Source: Defluviicoccus sp. (GTDB lineage: Bacteria > Pseudomonadota > Alphaproteobacteria > MPNO01). Taken from it: a stretch of DNA of 64,000 nucleotides. Location: assembly GCA_022823775.1 (NCBI GenBank), contig JAJEHI010000030.1:1-64000 (forward strand). The letters are read 5' to 3'. Position numbers and translations under genes: made by a program. Below, piece after piece: positions 4,087 through 14,465 of this stretch (position 1 is its first letter; every line of letters starts with the position of its first letter). The notes under the pieces were generated by a model, which was not told the DNA's origin, did no database searches, and worked only from the letters and a program-made list of their open reading frames with translations.

Positions 4087-4908
4087 CTAGTGCGACATCA
4101 GGACCGGCACGGTCATGCGTCTCAGGATGTCGCGCGTCATGCCGCCCAGCAGCAGCTCCCTCATGCGGTGACGACCGTAGGCGCCCATGACGAGCAGACC
4201 CGCGCCGTCGTCGGCGACCGCGTTCAACAGGACGTTGCCGGCGTCGATATCCGTCGTGGAGACCGTGTGCCGAGCCTCCGCCGTCACGCCGTGCCGCGCC
4301 AGGTGGGCGCAGATGTCGGTTCCGGGCGTGTGCGTGCCATCGCCGGTATCGACCCCGAGCACGACGACCTTCCTTGCGCGCCGCAGCAGGGGCAGCGCGT
4401 CGGAGACGGCGCGTTTCGCCTCCCGCGTGCCGTTCCACGCGACCGTGACGGTCGCCGGGTCGAGGTCGAACGAGCCGGTACAGGGCCAGACGAGAACCGG
4501 ACCGCCGGCGCCCATCACGACGCTGTCCGCGAGCCCCTGGGTGCTCCGCGCGTCGTCGGAATCGGTCTGGCCGACGACGGTGAGGTCGGCATAGTGGGCG
4601 TTCGTCGTGACGACTTCGACGGGGTCGCCGGCGAAGAGTCGCCATTCCGCGGGCGCCGACGCCTTTGCCGTCCGTTCCCCGAACCGCCGCTCGGCCTCCT
4701 CGGCGCGCTGACGGCGCTCCGCCGCCAGCCGTTCGCGGAACTCCGGCGGAAAACCGTCGCTGGCGTATTCGGGAATGGCGAGCGACGGCGCCACATACGC
4801 GCCCGTCACCCTGCTCTCGTGCAATTCCGCCAGTCCGATCGCCGCATCCAGGCGCGCCGGCGAACGACCGTCTTCCCCAAGATGAACGACAATATCCCGG
4901 TAAGCCAT
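4087..4908 (-). CDS. Universal stress protein, UspA family
   Basis: A 273-residue cytoplasmic protein, about twice the length of a single Usp domain. The first half (YRDIVVHLGEDGRS) is degenerate. The second half ends in GAYGRHRMRELLLGGMTRDIL, the G-2x-G-9x-G-T pattern of ATP-binding Usp domains. Two ATGs are possible; the one at 4908 has GAGG seven bases upstream and is preferred over 4914. It stands alone, convergent with ppx. The family is clear; the stress to which it responds cannot be read from the sequence. Confidence 0.88.
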   Translation of the reverse strand: MAYRDIVVHLGEDGRSPARLDAAIGLAELHESRVTGAYVAPSLAIPEYASDGFPPEFRERLAAERRQRAEEAERRFGERTAKASAPAEWRLFAGDPVEVVTTNAHYADLTVVGQTDSDDARSTQGLADSVVMGAGGPVLVWPCTGSFDLDPATVTVAWNGTREAKRAVSDALPLLRRARKVVVLGVDTGDGTHTPGTDICAHLARHGVTAEARHTVSTTDIDAGNVLLNAVADDGAGLLVMGAYGRHRMRELLLGGMTRDILRRMTVPVLMSH

Positions 4909-5102
4909 GGTCATACCTCATGCGTTGAACGATGCGGCATTCGAAATCCGCCGTGCCCCAAACCTGGTCTCCGCCGACGGGATCGAGATGGAAGGGGCGG
5001 TATCGCGGGCCGGAAACCGAATGCCGCCATCGCGGGTGCGTCGGCGGATTGGAGAATAGCGGCGAATGCCCGGGATGTGCGCGCGTCCGCCGCGTTTTCA
5101 GG

Positions 5103-5396
5103 TCAGGGCGCCTTGCGGTCGATCCGCTTTCGGCCGCCGCTGTCGATCGCGATCGTGCGCGGCTTGAGCGCCTCGGGAACCTCCCGCACCAGGTCGATAT
5201 GGAGCAGCCCCTTGTCGAGAGCCGCGCCGGTCACCCGGATGCGATCGGCGAGGTCGAAGCGCCGCTCGAACCCGACGGTCGGGATCCCGCGGCGAAGGTA
5301 CGCGTCGCCGCGCTGAAAGCTCGACGCCGCGGACGATGAACCGGTCCGCTCTAATGTTTCATGTGAAACAAAGGTCAGCACTGCTGACTTATCCAT
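5103..5396 (-). pseudogene. Hsp20/IbpA-type small heat-shock protein remnant (C-terminal half only)
   Basis: The last 70 or so residues match the C-terminal half of IbpA-like alpha-crystallin proteins: YLRRGIPTVGFERRFDLAD, then VTGAALDKGLLHIDLVREVP. The N-terminal half of the alpha-crystallin domain is missing. The frame upstream (MDKSAVLTFVSHETLER) has no Hsp20 character and covers a parS-like palindrome. Read as a 97-codon frame it could still be translated, but a truncated pseudogene is more likely. The 190 bases between it and the Usp gene hold nothing recognisable. Confidence 0.6.
5355..5370. promoter_or_regulatory. parS-like ParB binding site
   Basis: The 16-mer TGTTTCATGTGAAACA differs from the conserved bacterial parS palindrome TGTTTCACGTGAAACA at one central base. 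A partial half-site (CGTGAAACA) lies about 165 bp away at 5534-5542. Chromosomal parS sites usually lie near the replication origin and recruit ParB. No parAB, gidAB or dnaA gene is in the window, so function is unproven. Confidence 0.5.
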
Positions 5397-5547
5397 CGCT
5401 TGAAGAAAATGCCCTAACTGGACAAAAGCCGGGGCGCGCGAAACATTATTTCGCGCACCGCCCGGTTTCCCGTCCCCCGGGGACGCGAATCGCCGCTTTC
5501 CGGCCCCCGGCCCCGCCCGCCGACGAATCGGGTCGTGAAACACGTTT

Positions 5548-5578
5548 CCTATTCGTCGTACAGTTTGCAACGAATAGG
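5548..5578. repeat. Inverted repeat with 9-bp perfect arms
   Basis: CCTATTCGT at 5548-5556 is the exact reverse complement of ACGAATAGG at 5570-5578, with a 13-base loop. It lies 10 bp downstream of the stop codon of the minus-strand thiolase gene. It could be a 3'-end hairpin, although no T-run follows. A smaller inverted repeat (GAAAC-AC-GTTTC, 5537-5548) abuts it. Confidence 0.45.
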
Positions 5579-5587
5579 TCGGGCCCC

Positions 5588-6790
5588 CTACCCGTCCCCC
5601 ACCTCGACCACAACCGCCATCGCGCTGTCGCCAGCGGCGCAGCCGGTGAAGAGGCCGTAGCCGCCGCCGCGGATCGCGAGCTCCTCGATCAGCTCGATGA
5701 CGGCGCGCATGCCGGTCGGGCCCTGCGGGTGGCCCCAGATCAGGGAGCAGCCGTAATTGTTCATGGCGTCTATGTCGGCGCCGGTCTCGCGGCAGAACAC
5801 CACGTCGTTCACCGCGAACGGGTTGTGGGTCTTGATCGCGGCCACGTCGTCGAGCGAGATCCCGGCATCGTCGAGCGCGCGGCGGGCGGCGCCGATGGGC
5901 GCTTCCGGCATGTGGCGCACCGCCGCCCGCGACGTGCCGAAGCCGGCGAGGCGGACGGAGATGCCCTTGTCGCGCGAGAGCTCGCGGGCGCGCTCGCGGC
6001 CGGTCACGATAAAGCCCGCGTTGCCGTCCGCCGGGTGGGTCTGGCCGGCATAGGTCACGGTGCCGTCCTCGGCCACCGGGCGCAGCCGGTCGAGCCCCTC
6101 GCGCGTGGTCTCGTGTATCCCCTCGTCGCCCTCGAGAACGCCGGCGGTCTTGCGGTAGCGCGCGTCGGGCACATCGAGCGGCAGCGTCATGTAGCGCTTC
6201 TGGAATGCCCGGCCGTCGGCGACGGCGTCCTCGTACTGGTTGTAGCGCCGGAGCACCACGTCGTGCTGTTCCTCGGTGGTGATCTGCCATTTCCGGGCGA
6301 CCGTCTCGGCGGTGTCGATCATCCCGCACTTGGCATAGGGGTCGTCGGAGAAATTGCCCAGCACCCAGTTCTCGTGCTCGCCGGTTCCGCCCGGCGCGTG
6401 CGGCGCGGGGTAGTAGATGTGCGGGCCGTTGGAGGTCCGGTCGCCCGACATCGCGAGCGCGACCCCGGCGCCGCCGCCCTCGATCTCCTGGCTCGCCGCC
6501 TGGAGGCAGCGCGCGCCCGTCGCGCAGGCATGGTTGACGGTGGGGCCGGGGATGTGCGCGGCGCCCATCATCCCGGTCACCCAGGGCAGGCCGAAGAAGC
6601 ACTGCTTCTGCGCCACCGTCAGCCCGAGCACGCCGTAATCGATCTCGTCCAGCGCGACGCCGCGGCGCTCCAGCTCGCCGCGCGCGGTGTGGGCGAGAAA
6701 TTCCATGCTGTGGAGATGCGCGAGCCCGCCCTGCCAGCGCGAGAACGGCGTGCTCCAGTAAACCCCGTAGGGGACGTACGCCTCATGCAT
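5588..6790 (-). CDS. Thiolase-like acyltransferase (acetyl-CoA acetyltransferase / lipid-transfer family)
   Basis: A 400-residue thiolase-fold protein. The nucleophilic-cysteine region reads HACATGARCLQAA, and the C-terminal half carries HNPFAVND and GHPQGPTG, as in the SCPx/lipid-transfer thiolase group that acts on branched or bulky acyl-CoAs. The ATG at 6790 has an excellent AGGAGGAAC Shine-Dalgarno sequence. No partner DUF35/OB-fold gene is next to it. Neighbouring VOC and aminotransferase genes on the other strand suggest amino or keto acid catabolism, but the substrate is unknown. Confidence 0.82.
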   Translation of the reverse strand: MHEAYVPYGVYWSTPFSRWQGGLAHLHSMEFLAHTARGELERRGVALDEIDYGVLGLTVAQKQCFFGLPWVTGMMGAAHIPGPTVNHACATGARCLQAASQEIEGGGAGVALAMSGDRTSNGPHIYYPAPHAPGGTGEHENWVLGNFSDDPYAKCGMIDTAETVARKWQITTEEQHDVVLRRYNQYEDAVADGRAFQKRYMTLPLDVPDARYRKTAGVLEGDEGIHETTREGLDRLRPVAEDGTVTYAGQTHPADGNAGFIVTGRERARELSRDKGISVRLAGFGTSRAAVRHMPEAPIGAARRALDDAGISLDDVAAIKTHNPFAVNDVVFCRETGADIDAMNNYGCSLIWGHPQGPTGMRAVIELIEELAIRGGGYGLFTGCAAGDSAMAVVVEVGDG

Positions 6791-6839
6791 GTCGCCGTTC
6801 CTCCTGTTTCGGTGCGCCAACGGCGGGAACTCCGGCCGC

Positions 6840-6917
6840 CCCCTCCCCCGCAAGCGGGGGAGGGGTTCCGCCGCGGCCGACCTCCCCTCCCGCGCGCGGG
6901 AGGGGCCGGGGGAGGGC
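6840..6917. repeat. Pair of GC-rich extragenic palindromes
   Basis: A perfect 12-bp stem with an AA loop (6840-6865, arms CCCCTCCCCCGC and GCGGGGGAGGGG) is followed by a 22-bp perfect palindrome (6884-6905). A tail of GCCGGGGGAGGG runs to 6917. The second palindrome and tail share over 20 bases with the element near 8764-8784, so these are members of one dispersed extragenic repeat family. Confidence 0.75.
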
Positions 6918-7015
6918 ATCGCGACGATGGTAGCCTTAACCCCTACACCTCACCGCGTTCAGGCCCTAGATTACGCCCTCGAACGATGTCCTCATCGCCG
7001 GGAGCGAAAATACCG

Positions 7016-8667: not shown

Positions 8668-8699
8668 GCGGGACATTTTTCGGCCGGTTCCCCCCTGAC

Positions 8700-8784
8700 C
8701 CTCTCCCCGCTGGGGAGAGGAGACTCGCTTGCCCGCTCCTGCCTGCCTTCCCCCCTCCCGCTTGCGGGAGGGGCCGGGGGAGGG
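8700..8784. repeat. Second cluster of GC-rich extragenic palindromes
   Basis: Two hairpins lie in the gap after the aminotransferase: CCTCTCCCC-GCT-GGGGAGAGG (8700-8720) and CCCCTCCCGC-TT-GCGGGAGGGG (8752-8773). A GCCGGGGGAGGG tail follows the second. The second hairpin and tail match the element ending at 6917 almost exactly. They may also act as a transcript end, since each is strongly self-complementary. Confidence 0.75.
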
Positions 8785-8899
8785 CGGGTCGGCCGGTACG
8801 CCCCGCCGGATCACGATTCCGCGATTTCAGAACAGCGGCCTTGCACCGGAATTGCGGCCCCCCATGTCTCAATCCTGCCCATTCAGGAAAGAGATCGTC

Positions 8900-10068: not shown

Positions 10069-10199
10069 AAGAGTCGAACAAGGTCCTCCAGCCCGGTGTG
10101 ACCGACTGAACTTGCGAAGGGGTGCTGGGTTGGCTCGCCGAGATTCGAATTCCTGTCGTGACGAGGAAAAATTCGGCGGCACAGCCGGTGACATACGGG

Positions 10200-10220
10200 T
10201 CCTCCCGAGTATCGGGAGGA
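10200..10220. repeat. Perfect 9-bp hairpin upstream of the P450 operon
   Basis: TCCTCCCGA (10200-10208) and TCGGGAGGA (10212-10220) are exact inverted repeats with a three-base loop. The hairpin lies in the 424-bp gene-free stretch 10019-10442, which also holds a repeat at its left end and a promoter-like TATAAT at its right end. The rest of that stretch shows nothing recognisable. No T-run follows, so it could be an operator or the end of the upstream transcript. Confidence 0.45.
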
Positions 10221-10384
10221 ACGAAGGCGGTTGCGGGGCGGATGCCGTCCCCGGGGCGGCGTACGAAGCGACGGCCCCCGGCCGTGTGGCGACCGTCGGT
10301 AGGCCGATCGAACCGCCGGGCGCATCGTCGACGCAGGCGAAACATCGAGGAATTTTGGAAGTGCATCGTCAGCATCGTTAAGTC

Positions 10385-10390
10385 TATAAT
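10385..10390 (+). promoter_or_regulatory. Candidate -10 box for the P450 operon
   Basis: TATAAT, a perfect sigma-70 -10 hexamer, stands in an AT-rich patch about 55 bp before the P450 start. No good -35 is seen at 17 bp; the nearest is TGCATC at 10362. A purine-rich GAGGGAGAGGA lies at about 10416-10426. Confidence 0.4.
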
Positions 10391-10442
10391 TTTGCCCGGA
10401 AATCCTCGTAATCATGCGAGGGAGAGGACAACAGGTTCATTG

Positions 10443-12476
10443 GTGACTCACGAAACAGCGGTTCGAACGGGCCAGGGTGCGTCCGCGCTGAGTCTGCCGG
10501 AAGAGTTGCTGCTGGCGCTGCTGGACGAAGAGAGGGGTTATTTTCGTCAGGTACCCGGCTGGAACCTGAACTGCGCCATGGTCGGCGCGGCGCTGGGTGA
10601 ACTGTCGCTGCTCGGTCGCATCGACACCGATCTGGAGTCGCTGACTCTGTTGGATGCGACCGACACCGGTCGTCCGCTGCTCGACCCGATCTTGCGGGAG
10701 ATCGCGACCGAAACGGAACCGCACGATGCCCGCTACTGGATCGAGCGGCTTGCTCCGCAGTCCGAGTCGTTGATCCCCCAAGCGCTGGACGGGCTCGTCC
10801 AGCAACAGATTCTCGACGTCCACACGGGCGGTTTCTACACCTTCGCCAAGCGCCAGCGGCCGGGCGAAACATCGCTCGGAGAAGACCGCCTGGCGGGCGA
10901 GACCGTAAAGGCCCAGCTGACCAGGATCATCTTCACGGACGAGGTTCCGGGTCCGCGCGACGTGATCATCACCGGCCTCGTCAATGCCTGCCACGTGTTC
11001 CCTCTGATGTATCAGATCGACGAGGAGGTGGAGGAACGGATTCAGTTCGTCAGCCAGATGGACCTGATTGGCCGAGCGATCGCGGCAGCGGTGAGCCAGA
11101 GCATCCTCGCGCCCTCGCTTCGCCGGCCCTCGCTGACCAAGGCGATTCCAACCGTGTCCCTGCGCGACCTGGTGTTCAACCGCGAGCTGCGAGAGGGCAG
11201 GCTGCCGGCGGGATTCGCCAATTTGGCCGACAAGTACGGTCCGGTGTTCGAGCTCCGGCTCCCGTTCATCCGGAACGTGATTGTCCTGGCGGGGTTGAAG
11301 ACGAATGAGTGGGCCCATCGCATGGGGCGGGTGTTCCTGCGGTCGAAGGAGTATTTCGAGGGCGTCGACAAGGCGTATGGCGTGTCGCGCTCGATGCACT
11401 CGATCGACGGTGCCGATCACTTTCGCTTTCGCAAGGCGCTGCATACCACCTACTCTTCCAGTACTTTGACCAAGCGTCTGGACGAGGTCTATGACTTGGC
11501 CCGCACGCACATGGCGAGTTGGGACGTCGGCACCACGATGCCGGCGCAGGTGATGCTGCGACCGTTTGTGAACGCGCAGACATCGCCGCTCCTGGCCAAC
11601 ATTGACACCCAGGCCGAGATTGTCGACGCGCTCGAGTACAAGGTACGGGTGCTCAATGTAGGCATCGTCAAGATGATGCCGCGTTTCATGCTCAAGACCC
11701 CGTCGATGCGCCGCCGGGCGAAGGCCATGCAACGGATCGTAGATCGTATGCAAAGGACGCATACGGCCGCGCAGCGGGTTGGGATGCATGAGGACGTGGT
11801 GGACGCGTATCTGGCCCTGCACGCGTCCGATCCCCAATTCCTGCCCGAATCGGACCTGTCGCTGCCGCTAGGGGCGATCTTGATGACCGCCATGTACATG
11901 GGCGATCAGGTTGGCTTCGCCCTTTACTGGTTGCTGCAGAATCCCGAATTGTACGAGCGAGTCACGGCTGAAGCGGACGCGTTGTGGGCCGAGGGCGATC
12001 CCAGCGCCGATGACTTGAGCCGAGACCGGATCGACGTGACCCATCGGGTGCTGATGGAGACTCTGCGGATGTCGCCGATCGTGCCCATGTCGATGCGCAC
12101 GGTGATGAACACCTGCGTGGTGGAGGGTTACGAACTACCGGTCGGGGCGCAGCTCGTGATTGCGCAGACGGCCACGCATTACTCGGAAGAGGCGTTTCCC
12201 GATCCGTGGAAGTTCGACATCGACCGCTATGTGTCCCCGCGAAACGAGCACATGGGCAGAGGCTACGCGCCCTTCGGGCTGGGCACGCACTCATGTCTCG
12301 GGAGCCGCTGGGCCGAGTTGCACATAGTGATCAACCTGCTGATGCTCACGCATCATTTCAGGATCGAGCTGGCCCGCCCCTACGCGCGGTTGCCGATGGA
12401 TCCGTTGCCCTCACAGTCGCCCAGCAACAAGCTCAAGTTCAGGCTCGCCGAGCTGCGGCACGAAATTCGGGTCTGA
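10443..12476 (+). CDS. GPP34 (GOLPH3/Vps74-like) domain fused to cytochrome P450
   Basis: A 677-residue two-domain protein. Residues about 16-215 match the GPP34 fold: LSLPEELLLALLDEERG, then PGWN and LGELSLLGRID, LLDPIL and YWIERL, in the order seen in human GOLPH3. From about 235 to the end is a cytochrome P450: ExxR at 539-542 (ETLR), FDIDRY, and the haem loop APFGLGTHSCLG with Cys618 as thiolate ligand. The I-helix reads TAMYMGDQVG (about 482-491) and lacks the usual acid-threonine pair. The start is GTG 10443 (TTG 10440 is also possible). It is the first gene of a lower-GC cluster with an SDR and a 5-alpha-reductase. Substrate is unknown; a sterol or isoprenoid lipid is inferred from neighbours. 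Confidence 0.88.
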   Translation: MTHETAVRTGQGASALSLPEELLLALLDEERGYFRQVPGWNLNCAMVGAALGELSLLGRIDTDLESLTLLDATDTGRPLLDPILREIATETEPHDARYWIERLAPQSESLIPQALDGLVQQQILDVHTGGFYTFAKRQRPGETSLGEDRLAGETVKAQLTRIIFTDEVPGPRDVIITGLVNACHVFPLMYQIDEEVEERIQFVSQMDLIGRAIAAAVSQSILAPSLRRPSLTKAIPTVSLRDLVFNRELREGRLPAGFANLADKYGPVFELRLPFIRNVIVLAGLKTNEWAHRMGRVFLRSKEYFEGVDKAYGVSRSMHSIDGADHFRFRKALHTTYSSSTLTKRLDEVYDLARTHMASWDVGTTMPAQVMLRPFVNAQTSPLLANIDTQAEIVDALEYKVRVLNVGIVKMMPRFMLKTPSMRRRAKAMQRIVDRMQRTHTAAQRVGMHEDVVDAYLALHASDPQFLPESDLSLPLGAILMTAMYMGDQVGFALYWLLQNPELYERVTAEADALWAEGDPSADDLSRDRIDVTHRVLMETLRMSPIVPMSMRTVMNTCVVEGYELPVGAQLVIAQTATHYSEEAFPDPWKFDIDRYVSPRNEHMGRGYAPFGLGTHSCLGSRWAELHIVINLLMLTHHFRIELARPYARLPMDPLPSQSPSNKLKFRLAELRHEIRV

Positions 12477-12525
12477 GTTCGCGACGCCCGGTCCGGTCTA
12501 CGATTCGGGAATCGAGCCTTTCGCA

Positions 12526-13554
12526 ATGAAATCATCTGGCGGCGGGCGACCTCGCACCGTACGGGCGATTACGGGAGCAAGCGGGCAGATCGGCGGGGTC
12601 CTCGCGCGGGCCCTGGCCGACCGGTACGGGCCCGGTCGGATCCGCGCGATCTACCGGGAGCGTCGAGGCACGGCGGCGGACCTGGATATCGCATGGGTCA
12701 ATGGCGACATCCTGGACAGGGAATCGCTGATCGCCGCCTTCAAGGGCGCGGAGGCCGTGTTTCATCTGGCCGCGCTGGTCTCGATCGATGCCGTCGGGGC
12801 GCAGGAGTTCCATCGCACGAATGTCGTGGGCACACGCAACGTCGTGGAGGCGGCCCTTGCATGTGGCGTACGGCGCCTGGTCCACGTTTCCTCGATCCAC
12901 GCCTACGACCAGCACCCGCTGGACGAAGCTCTCGATGAGAGTCGCCGTCCCGCGGATGGCCTGCATCATGGTCCGTACGACCGTTCGAAAGCCGCCGGCG
13001 AAGTGGAAGTCCGCCGCGGCATCGACCGCGGCCTGGACGCCGTGATCCTGAATCCGACCAGCGTGATCGGCCCTTACGACGGCGAGCCGTCCCCTATGGG
13101 ACAGGTCTTTCTCGACCTCTACCGCGGGCGGATTCCCGCGCTGATCGCGGGCGGCTACGACTGGGTCGACGTGCGGGATGTCGTGGCGGCCGCGATGGCC
13201 GCCGAGACGAAGGCGAGATGTGGCGAGAACTACCTCGTCTCCGGCCACTGGCACACCGTGCGCGAATTGGCCGAGCTCTCTCGGCAGGCGACCGGTGTCG
13301 CCGCACCCCGTCTCCAGTTCCCGTTGTGGGTCGCCCGGCTGTGGGCGCCCTGCCAGGTCGTCCTGGATCGATGTCGCGGCCGCCGGCCGCTCTACACGCC
13401 GGAGGCCGTCCGAGTCATGGCCGACGGCAATCGGAGGATATCCAGCGCCAAGGCGCGGGCGGAGCTCGGGTTCCGCCCGCGCCCTCTCGCGGAATCGGTC
13501 GAGGACACGTATCGCTGGTTCCATGAACACGGCATGCTGGGCGAAGGGGCGTGA
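12526..13554 (+). CDS. NAD(P)-dependent epimerase/3-beta-hydroxysteroid dehydrogenase-type SDR
   Basis: A 342-residue extended short-chain dehydrogenase. It has the nucleotide-binding ITGASGQIGG near the N terminus, a VFHLAALVS segment, VSSIHAYD, and the catalytic YDRSK. The architecture resembles 3-beta-HSD/isomerases and dihydroflavonol reductases, which oxidise or reduce a ring hydroxyl; bacterial sterol C4-demethylation also uses such a reductase (SdmB). The start is ATG 12526, 50 bp after the P450. Its last codons overlap the likely start of the 5-alpha-reductase. The reaction is inferred only from family and context. Confidence 0.85.
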   Translation: MKSSGGGRPRTVRAITGASGQIGGVLARALADRYGPGRIRAIYRERRGTAADLDIAWVNGDILDRESLIAAFKGAEAVFHLAALVSIDAVGAQEFHRTNVVGTRNVVEAALACGVRRLVHVSSIHAYDQHPLDEALDESRRPADGLHHGPYDRSKAAGEVEVRRGIDRGLDAVILNPTSVIGPYDGEPSPMGQVFLDLYRGRIPALIAGGYDWVDVRDVVAAAMAAETKARCGENYLVSGHWHTVRELAELSRQATGVAAPRLQFPLWVARLWAPCQVVLDRCRGRRPLYTPEAVRVMADGNRRISSAKARAELGFRPRPLAESVEDTYRWFHEHGMLGEGA

Positions 13555-14317
13555 ACTGACCGAGGAACGACTGCACGGGATGCTGGTATGGGCTGTCTTC
13601 GCGACGGCGGTCCTGACTTTCCTGTACCTGTTCCGCAGAGCTGCACCGTACGGGCGCCACTACGCGGGCGCGGGGTGGGGACCGCACATTTCCGCGAGGC
13701 TCGCTTGGGTCGTCATGGAACTGCCGGCGCCCGTGCTCTTTCTCGTCGTCTATCTCAACGGCAAGGGCGCGTTCCAGATCGTGCCGCTGCTGTTCCTGGT
13801 CATGTGGCAGGGCCATTATCTGAACCGGACGTTCGTCTATCCGTTTCGTGTCCGGGCACGCGGCCGGAAGACGCCCTTGCTGCTGGTTGGGTCCGGCTTT
13901 TTCTTCAATGCGATCAACGCATACATCAACGCCCGCTTCATTTCGGAATTCGGCGAGTACGCCACCGATTGGCTGGCCGATCCCCGATTCCTGGTCGGGG
14001 TCGGGATTTTCCTCGCCGGGCTCGCGCTCAATCTTCACGCCGACAACACCCTCATGCGCCTGCGCCGGCCCGGCGAGACTGGCTACGCGATACCGCAGGG
14101 CGGCGGGTTCCGGTTCGTCTCGTGCCCGAACTATCTGGGGGAAATCCTCGAATGGCTGGGCTGGGCGGTCGCGACCTGGTCGTCGTGCGGCCTTTCATTC
14201 ATGCTGTTCACCGTCGCCAATCTCGCTCCGAGGGCGCGGAGCAACCATCGTTGGTATCTGGAGACGTTCAGCGATTATCCGGCGCGCCGCCGGGCCCTGA
14301 TACCGGGCATCTACTGA
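13523..14317 (+). CDS. Steroid 5-alpha-reductase (SRD5A1/2-like) membrane enzyme
   Basis: An integral-membrane NADPH-dependent reductase of the 3-oxo-5-alpha-steroid 4-dehydrogenase family, which reduces the C4-C5 double bond of 3-oxo-delta4 steroids. Family landmarks run in order: ERLHGML, PYGRHY, WVVMELP, HYLNRTFVYPF, DPRFLVG, LNLHADN, RRPGETGYAIPQGG, NYLGEILEW, FSDYPARRRALIP. The ATG at 13523 gives 264 residues, close to human SRD5A1 (259), and keeps the conserved EERL segment. It overlaps the upstream gene by 32 bp. An ATG at 13580 would give 245 residues. Polyprenol or enoyl-CoA reductase activity is an alternative, but these motifs favour SRD5A1/2. Confidence 0.85.
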   Translation: MNTACWAKGRELTEERLHGMLVWAVFATAVLTFLYLFRRAAPYGRHYAGAGWGPHISARLAWVVMELPAPVLFLVVYLNGKGAFQIVPLLFLVMWQGHYLNRTFVYPFRVRARGRKTPLLLVGSGFFFNAINAYINARFISEFGEYATDWLADPRFLVGVGIFLAGLALNLHADNTLMRLRRPGETGYAIPQGGGFRFVSCPNYLGEILEWLGWAVATWSSCGLSFMLFTVANLAPRARSNHRWYLETFSDYPARRRALIPGIY

Positions 14318-14465
14318 GGCCCGAGAGCTCGATCGGGAATTCTCGAGTAGCCCCGGCCCCTGGACCCGCGATGTGGTTTCGACCCCGAATCGGGAGGCTG
14401 CCATGGCATGTACCAGGGCTGCTCACGCCAGGTAGACGCGTCGGCGCCGCATCGAGGGACGCGCC

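Follow-up and report, generated by a model that had tools for sequence, protein, structure and literature searches.

The window (the whole 64,000-nucleotide stretch of Defluviicoccus sp. contig JAJEHI010000030.1 that was analysed) encodes a single protein in which a GOLPH3-like GPP34 domain is joined to a cytochrome P450. The fusion is probably (probability about 0.6) a steroid- or sterol-tailoring enzyme used by marine bacteria that live with hosts; it is encoded on a mobile module of three genes and would use GPP34 as a docking domain. The tailoring role is regarded as probable because the fusion recurs in at least eight bacterial phyla, all represented by metagenome-assembled genomes, beside genes that make or modify sterols. 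The features concerned are as follows.

10443..12476, + strand: GPP34-P450 fusion protein, 677 aa, GTG start; the N-terminus M/VTHETA... is common to close relatives
10494..11096, + strand: GPP34 (GOLPH3-like) domain, residues 18-218, found by Pfam; fold match to GOLPH3/Vps74 only
11097..11210, + strand: conserved basic linker, residues 219-256; probable recombination break at about residues 200-226
11211..12404, + strand: cytochrome P450 domain, residues 257-654, found by Pfam; Foldseek match to P450s
11880..11918, + strand: I-helix LMTAMYMGDQVGF, residues 480-492; canonical acid-Thr pair absent
12057..12068, + strand: K-helix ExxR, E539-T-L-R542; E539 and R542 invariant in the family
12294..12296, + strand: haem-ligand Cys618 in FGLGTHSCLG, which fits the FxxGxxxCxG motif
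12526..13554, + strand: extended SDR, 3beta-HSD / HpnA / SdmB-like by Pfam, NCBIfam and PDB; 342 aa as called, the start in relatives lying about 11 residues later
13523..14317, + strand: SRD5A-type steroid 5alpha-reductase (PF02544), overlapping the SDR stop; exact start uncertain
10089..14431, no strand: putative module gained by horizontal transfer, 4.34 kb; a congener has an empty site here, flanked by GDH and GST genes

The reading frame at 10443-12476 (+) is open throughout, with 677 codons of protein and zero internal stops. Pfam places GPP34 (PF05719) at residues 18-218 (E 1e-27; 97.9 bits, cut-off 29.1) and p450 (PF00067) at residues 257-654 (E 8e-35; 120.9 bits, cut-off 22.8). A sequence-only reading had described the N-terminal 200 or so residues as GOLPH3-like and the C-terminal part as a complete P450 with ExxR and haem Cys618. 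Both assignments are borne out: the domain search recovers GPP34 in the region where that reading had expected it (residues 1-215), and the Pfam p450 match contains E539-R542 and FGLGTHSCLG. Structural modelling agrees, the GPP34 part matching GOLPH3/Vps74 and the P450 part matching solved P450s in Foldseek, with a whole-protein model of moderate quality (pLDDT 79, pTM 0.68). A total of 44 full-length fusions (scan loci plus congeners of the window, the window's own gene being counted twice, once as L006) are 47-100% identical and run unbroken across the GPP34/P450 junction, so the fusion is neither a chance event nor a sequencing artefact. The reading as separate genes was dropped, since none of the copies breaks at the linker; the frame breaks in the copies of L037, L046 and L061 fall outside it.

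The GPP34-P450 fusion is a widespread family that is undescribed in the searched literature, where no paper on such a fusion was found, in line with the earlier statement that no described role was known for it. A scan with one genome per species yielded 58 fusion loci, whose records are labelled Pseudomonadota, Chloroflexota, Gemmatimonadota, Acidobacteriota, Actinomycetota, Latescibacterota, Binatota, Rhodothermota and Verrucomicrobiota. The first phylum sample for Alphaproteobacteria held only the window's own copy, and a class sample selected by GPP34 added six alphaproteobacterial genomes with the fusion, one copy being frame-broken. The plasmid search returned no fused relative covering 80% of the query and only unfused P450s among the matches listed, the nearest of which sits in a triterpene-type cluster. 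Several genome series carrying the fusion are presumably sponge or coral derived; the records name no hosts. Tandem duplicated fusion genes occur in two Acidimicrobiia bins (L048:9971-14260 and L046:2809-7102), one L046 copy being frame-broken. Most records are metagenome-assembled, as are the fusion-bearing genomes of the scan, with binning errors possible, and one Bryobacterales bin carries four fusion copies on separate contigs. It is nevertheless quite unlikely that mis-binned contigs account for most of the spread across phyla, as the contigs are long, their gene contexts are distinct, the Chloroflexota and Actinomycetota copies form clades of their own, and the insertion in the window is matched by an empty site in a congener.

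In congener G003 the matches to the window that end at 10088 and resume at 14432 lie seven bases apart, and the 4.34-kb three-gene segment between them is missing. Congeners G004 and G005 show similar joins, which are less exact. Because exactly these three genes are missing at the empty site, the fusion, SDR and SRD5A genes are taken to be one transferable unit. The four congeners have the fusion only as a 53%-identical version located elsewhere. From these sequence comparisons the three-gene module is judged to be a recent, horizontally acquired insertion in the window's genome. At 8693-8788 the window has an intergenic, dispersed repeat of roughly 95 bases that occurs in many copies in G003 and G004. 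The SDR carries a Pfam 3Beta_HSD match, falls below the NCBIfam equivalog cut-offs (SdmB, 209.9 against 600 bits; HpnA, 218.8 against 367.65) and is the next same-strand gene in 24 of the 52 fusion copies with room downstream. The steroid 5alpha-reductase is matched strongly by PF02544 (2e-51, 174 bits against 22.6) and in the PDB by 7c83 (1e-79) and SRD5A2 7bw1 (4e-45), and is the sole SRD5A-type copy in the genome. In the proposed pathway the haem domain would act on a steroid supplied by a core sterol cluster or by the host, the SDR would oxidise the 3-OH to a 3-ketone, and the membrane-embedded 5alpha-reductase would saturate the ring.

The survey of fusions and their neighbours that had been suggested earlier supplied the genomic context. 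This steroid setting, the most telling evidence of all, had gone unnoticed in the sequence-only reading, as had the absence of the I-helix motif. Of the 45 fusion loci that span 12 kb or more, 38 contain steroid or sterol genes, as does 1 of 35 control loci. The contrast is to be read as co-conservation rather than independent annotation, because the controls are on average the shorter loci and fusion loci supplied most of the reference proteins. The sole positive control, L064, is itself a truncated fusion locus, and six long fusion loci are without a recognised steroid gene. Recurring neighbours include the same SDR (29 loci) and a KshA-like Rieske oxygenase (31 loci), both members of broad families, as well as SRD5A (22 loci), an FAD enzyme (20), an MMPL/HpnN-like exporter with a sterol-sensing match (19), a LolA-like protein (14), an AcrB-type RND protein (11) and SMT-type genes (11). 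In L007, L011, L041, L049 and L050 the fusion shares a contig with varying sets of core sterol genes (CYP51, ERG24, SdmA, SdmB, cyclase, SMT), and L081 has, more weakly, core sterol-cluster genes beside the fusion. Loci of the divergent fusion type also encode a conserved, amine-oxidase-like FAD enzyme of 452 aa (L043:7252-8610 and relatives), which usually lies beside a KshA-like Rieske gene.

The window's genome has two core sterol clusters elsewhere. One (L072) encodes SdmB, SdmA, an ERG24-type reductase, a CYP51-like P450, a squalene epoxidase-oxidosqualene cyclase and an SMT; the other (L071), which ends at a contig end, has Rieske, ERG24, P450 and cyclase homologues. In this genome (G000) squalene epoxidase and oxidosqualene cyclase form one chain of about 1130 aa, at L072:9731-13123 (+) and L071:4711-8118 (-), and the L072 chain matches Pfam SE and both SQHop_cyclase N and C. 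Among GPP34-bearing Alphaproteobacteria, 7 of the 11 genomes with the fusion encode this cyclase, compared with 2 of the other 24 (p=0.0013); the sample consists of related genomes, includes incomplete ones, and counts one non-member of the class among the 24. The oxidosqualene cyclase was not found in 4 of the 11 fusion genomes, so a substrate made de novo is not universal. Symbionts of sponges were reported to have sterol gene clusters, horizontally transferred and present in multiple phyla, that include ERG24, CYP51, cyclase and SMT (Kelly et al. 2022, PMC9531527; Brown et al. 2023, PMC10070321), and the two clusters of the window's genome are of this kind. The GPP34-P450 fusion is not mentioned in the parts of those two papers that were consulted; unlike the clusters described there, it appears to mark a separate tailoring module with SRD5A, KshA-like Rieske oxygenase and RND/MMPL exporters.

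The same neighbourhoods bear on whether the module builds a product at all. It might instead degrade or detoxify host steroids: the Rieske neighbours resemble the 3-ketosteroid 9alpha-hydroxylase KshA, and some fusion genomes are without the cyclase. This is unlikely, as the linked genes are those of sterol building (SdmA/B, ERG24, CYP51, cyclase, SMT) and typical ring-cleavage genes are absent from the annotated families round the fusions, where not every neighbour is annotated. In the P450 half the I-helix (A/G)Gx(D/E)T O2-activation motif is replaced in the window by TAM-YMGDQ, one residue shorter in the alignment, and by equivalents in every fusion compared; the three closest unfused P450s found keep it (AGLDT, AGLDT, GGMET). 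Within the helix Y485, G487, D488 and F492 are invariant across the fusion family, which argues that it is under selection and not decaying. The P450 chemistry may therefore differ from the usual, since the fusions are without the acid-Thr pair that their unfused relatives keep; this altered chemistry is suggested, and unproven. Since the haem Cys is retained in the absence of this motif, the step may be atypical (a desaturation, a rearrangement or a peroxide-dependent reaction) rather than a textbook hydroxylation. The haem Cys is present in all compared fusions except that of L054 (9965-12040), where Arg replaces it (GTHTRLG) through sequencing error, decay or a haem-less variant. It is a real possibility, though one we somewhat doubt, that in the same steroid context the haem domain is no monooxygenase and serves as a haem-binding isomerase, desaturase, peroxygenase or regulatory pseudo-P450 that GPP34 brings to its partners. 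The consistent loss of the acid-Thr pair, the invariant helix residues and the L054 copy fit such a role; the otherwise conserved haem Cys and ExxR speak against it, and active P450s lacking the I-helix Thr exist, P450eryF being an example. The best PDB profile matches of the P450 half are bacterial CYP51 enzymes (4e-27), namely the Methylococcus capsulatus CYP51-ferredoxin (6mi0/7snm) and Mycobacterium CYP51, which also share a high fold match and the sterol context. The fusion differs from them in being only about 20-25% identical and in lacking the acid/His-Thr I-helix motif; with separate CYP51-like genes in the genome's sterol clusters, its identification as the CYP51 sterol 14alpha-demethylase was rejected. 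A P450-derived glycosyltransferase activator (TIGR04515) was likewise rejected (35.8 against 343 bits, with the haem Cys kept).

As to the GPP34 half, a tailoring enzyme held at the membrane could use the domain as GOLPH3 does, by binding a phosphoinositide, host-derived or bacterial, and recruiting enzymes. The fold is the same: the domain model (AlphaFold, pLDDT 87, pTM 0.86) matches only GOLPH3 and Vps74 in the PDB at E<=1e-3, with TM 0.62-0.75, and W40 pairs with the Vps74 Trp in the single-sequence alignment, though not in the profile alignment. The PI4P site is another matter. Its residues in GOLPH3 are taken here to be Arg90, Arg171 and Arg174. The Arg90 position, for which an exchange of the Arg near the lipid site to Ala had been proposed, is occupied by Val47 in both alignments made, and the Arg171 and Arg174 positions are not Arg in the profile alignment, where an invariant R172 aligns adjacent. 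The domain is also strongly acidic, with a pI of about 4.4 and a net charge of -17 in the window and a pI of 4.2-4.9 with net charges of -11 to -25 in the sampled copies, the linker carrying +3 to +9. With none of the three PI4P-site arginines kept, a GOLPH3-like PI4P mechanism is unsupported, and action as in GOLPH3 is very improbable. The fusion thus resembles GOLPH3/Vps74 (PF05719) in fold and family; those eukaryotic adaptors are separate, PI4P-binding proteins, whereas this domain is acidic, without the basic site and joined to a P450. The bacterial GPP34 protein SCO4440 of Streptomyces, which is GOLPH3-like, was linked to peptidoglycan and to wall-deficient cells (PMC12402492), and an enzyme fusion is not described there.

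A role for GPP34 in docking to a membrane or a partner, as the sequence-only reading suggested, is plausible. Several of the 32 stand-alone bacterial GPP34 genes examined overlap or abut PHO4 phosphate transporter genes or abut ammonium transporter genes; one of the set is fused to an MFS transporter (L100:7333-9294) and three to a multi-TM segment (L073, with coordinates 4295-6982, L082 and L084). The transporter-linked loci also include L099:6370-8375, L075:162-2077 and L083. Since stand-alone GPP34s so often adjoin or fuse with integral membrane transporters, and the operon partner of the fusion belongs to the integral-membrane SRD5A family, we infer that GPP34 docks at a membrane face via partners and not via PI4P. 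Through a protein or membrane partner it would then keep the P450 on the cytoplasmic side of the inner membrane. Eleven of the 32 stand-alone loci have the GPP34 gene near a STAS-domain gene of about 110 aa (L070:9472-10484, L107, L106, L115, L113, L108, L109, L069 and others), and the multi-TM-fused genes (L073, L082, L084) adjoin a multihaem cytochrome c.

If the fusion is a tailoring enzyme, bacterial GPP34 domains gain a concrete biochemical setting, and a tailoring step is named that the sterol clusters described from sponge symbionts do not include. The fusions also add a P450 family not described before, in which the oxygen-activation helix is rewritten. This bears on the long-standing question of whether the host or its bacteria make or modify sponge steroids, fossil sterane markers among them. 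A wider proposal is offered only tentatively and is more doubtful than the tailoring role: that host-associated bacteria of many phyla share a steroid-signal-like pathway, moved horizontally as whole modules, to 3-keto/5alpha-reduced, side-chain-alkylated steroids, with a KshA-like Rieske oxygenase in many loci, and that its central enzyme is a new P450 class that lacks the acid-Thr motif, depends on a GOLPH3-type docking domain and carries out haem chemistry of a non-classical kind.

The two halves of the fusion do not share one history. In L021, L025, L041, L028 and L029 the P450 is 82-91% identical to that of the window and the GPP34 only 52-58%, the change falling at residues 200-226, and the trees of the two halves disagree. 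Placing the swapped GPP34s with the window type was rejected (p=1e-4; Rhodospirillales pair, p=2e-4), as was placing the swapped P450s with the other type (p=0.004), the swap groups having been named after the identities were seen. When type-A and swapped rows were constrained to a single clade of the GPP34 tree, a looser grouping, the AU test gave no rejection (p=0.29). As judged from these trees and identities, recombination at the linker has brought together GPP34 and P450 halves of different lineages; the halves behave as exchangeable modules that yet stay joined.
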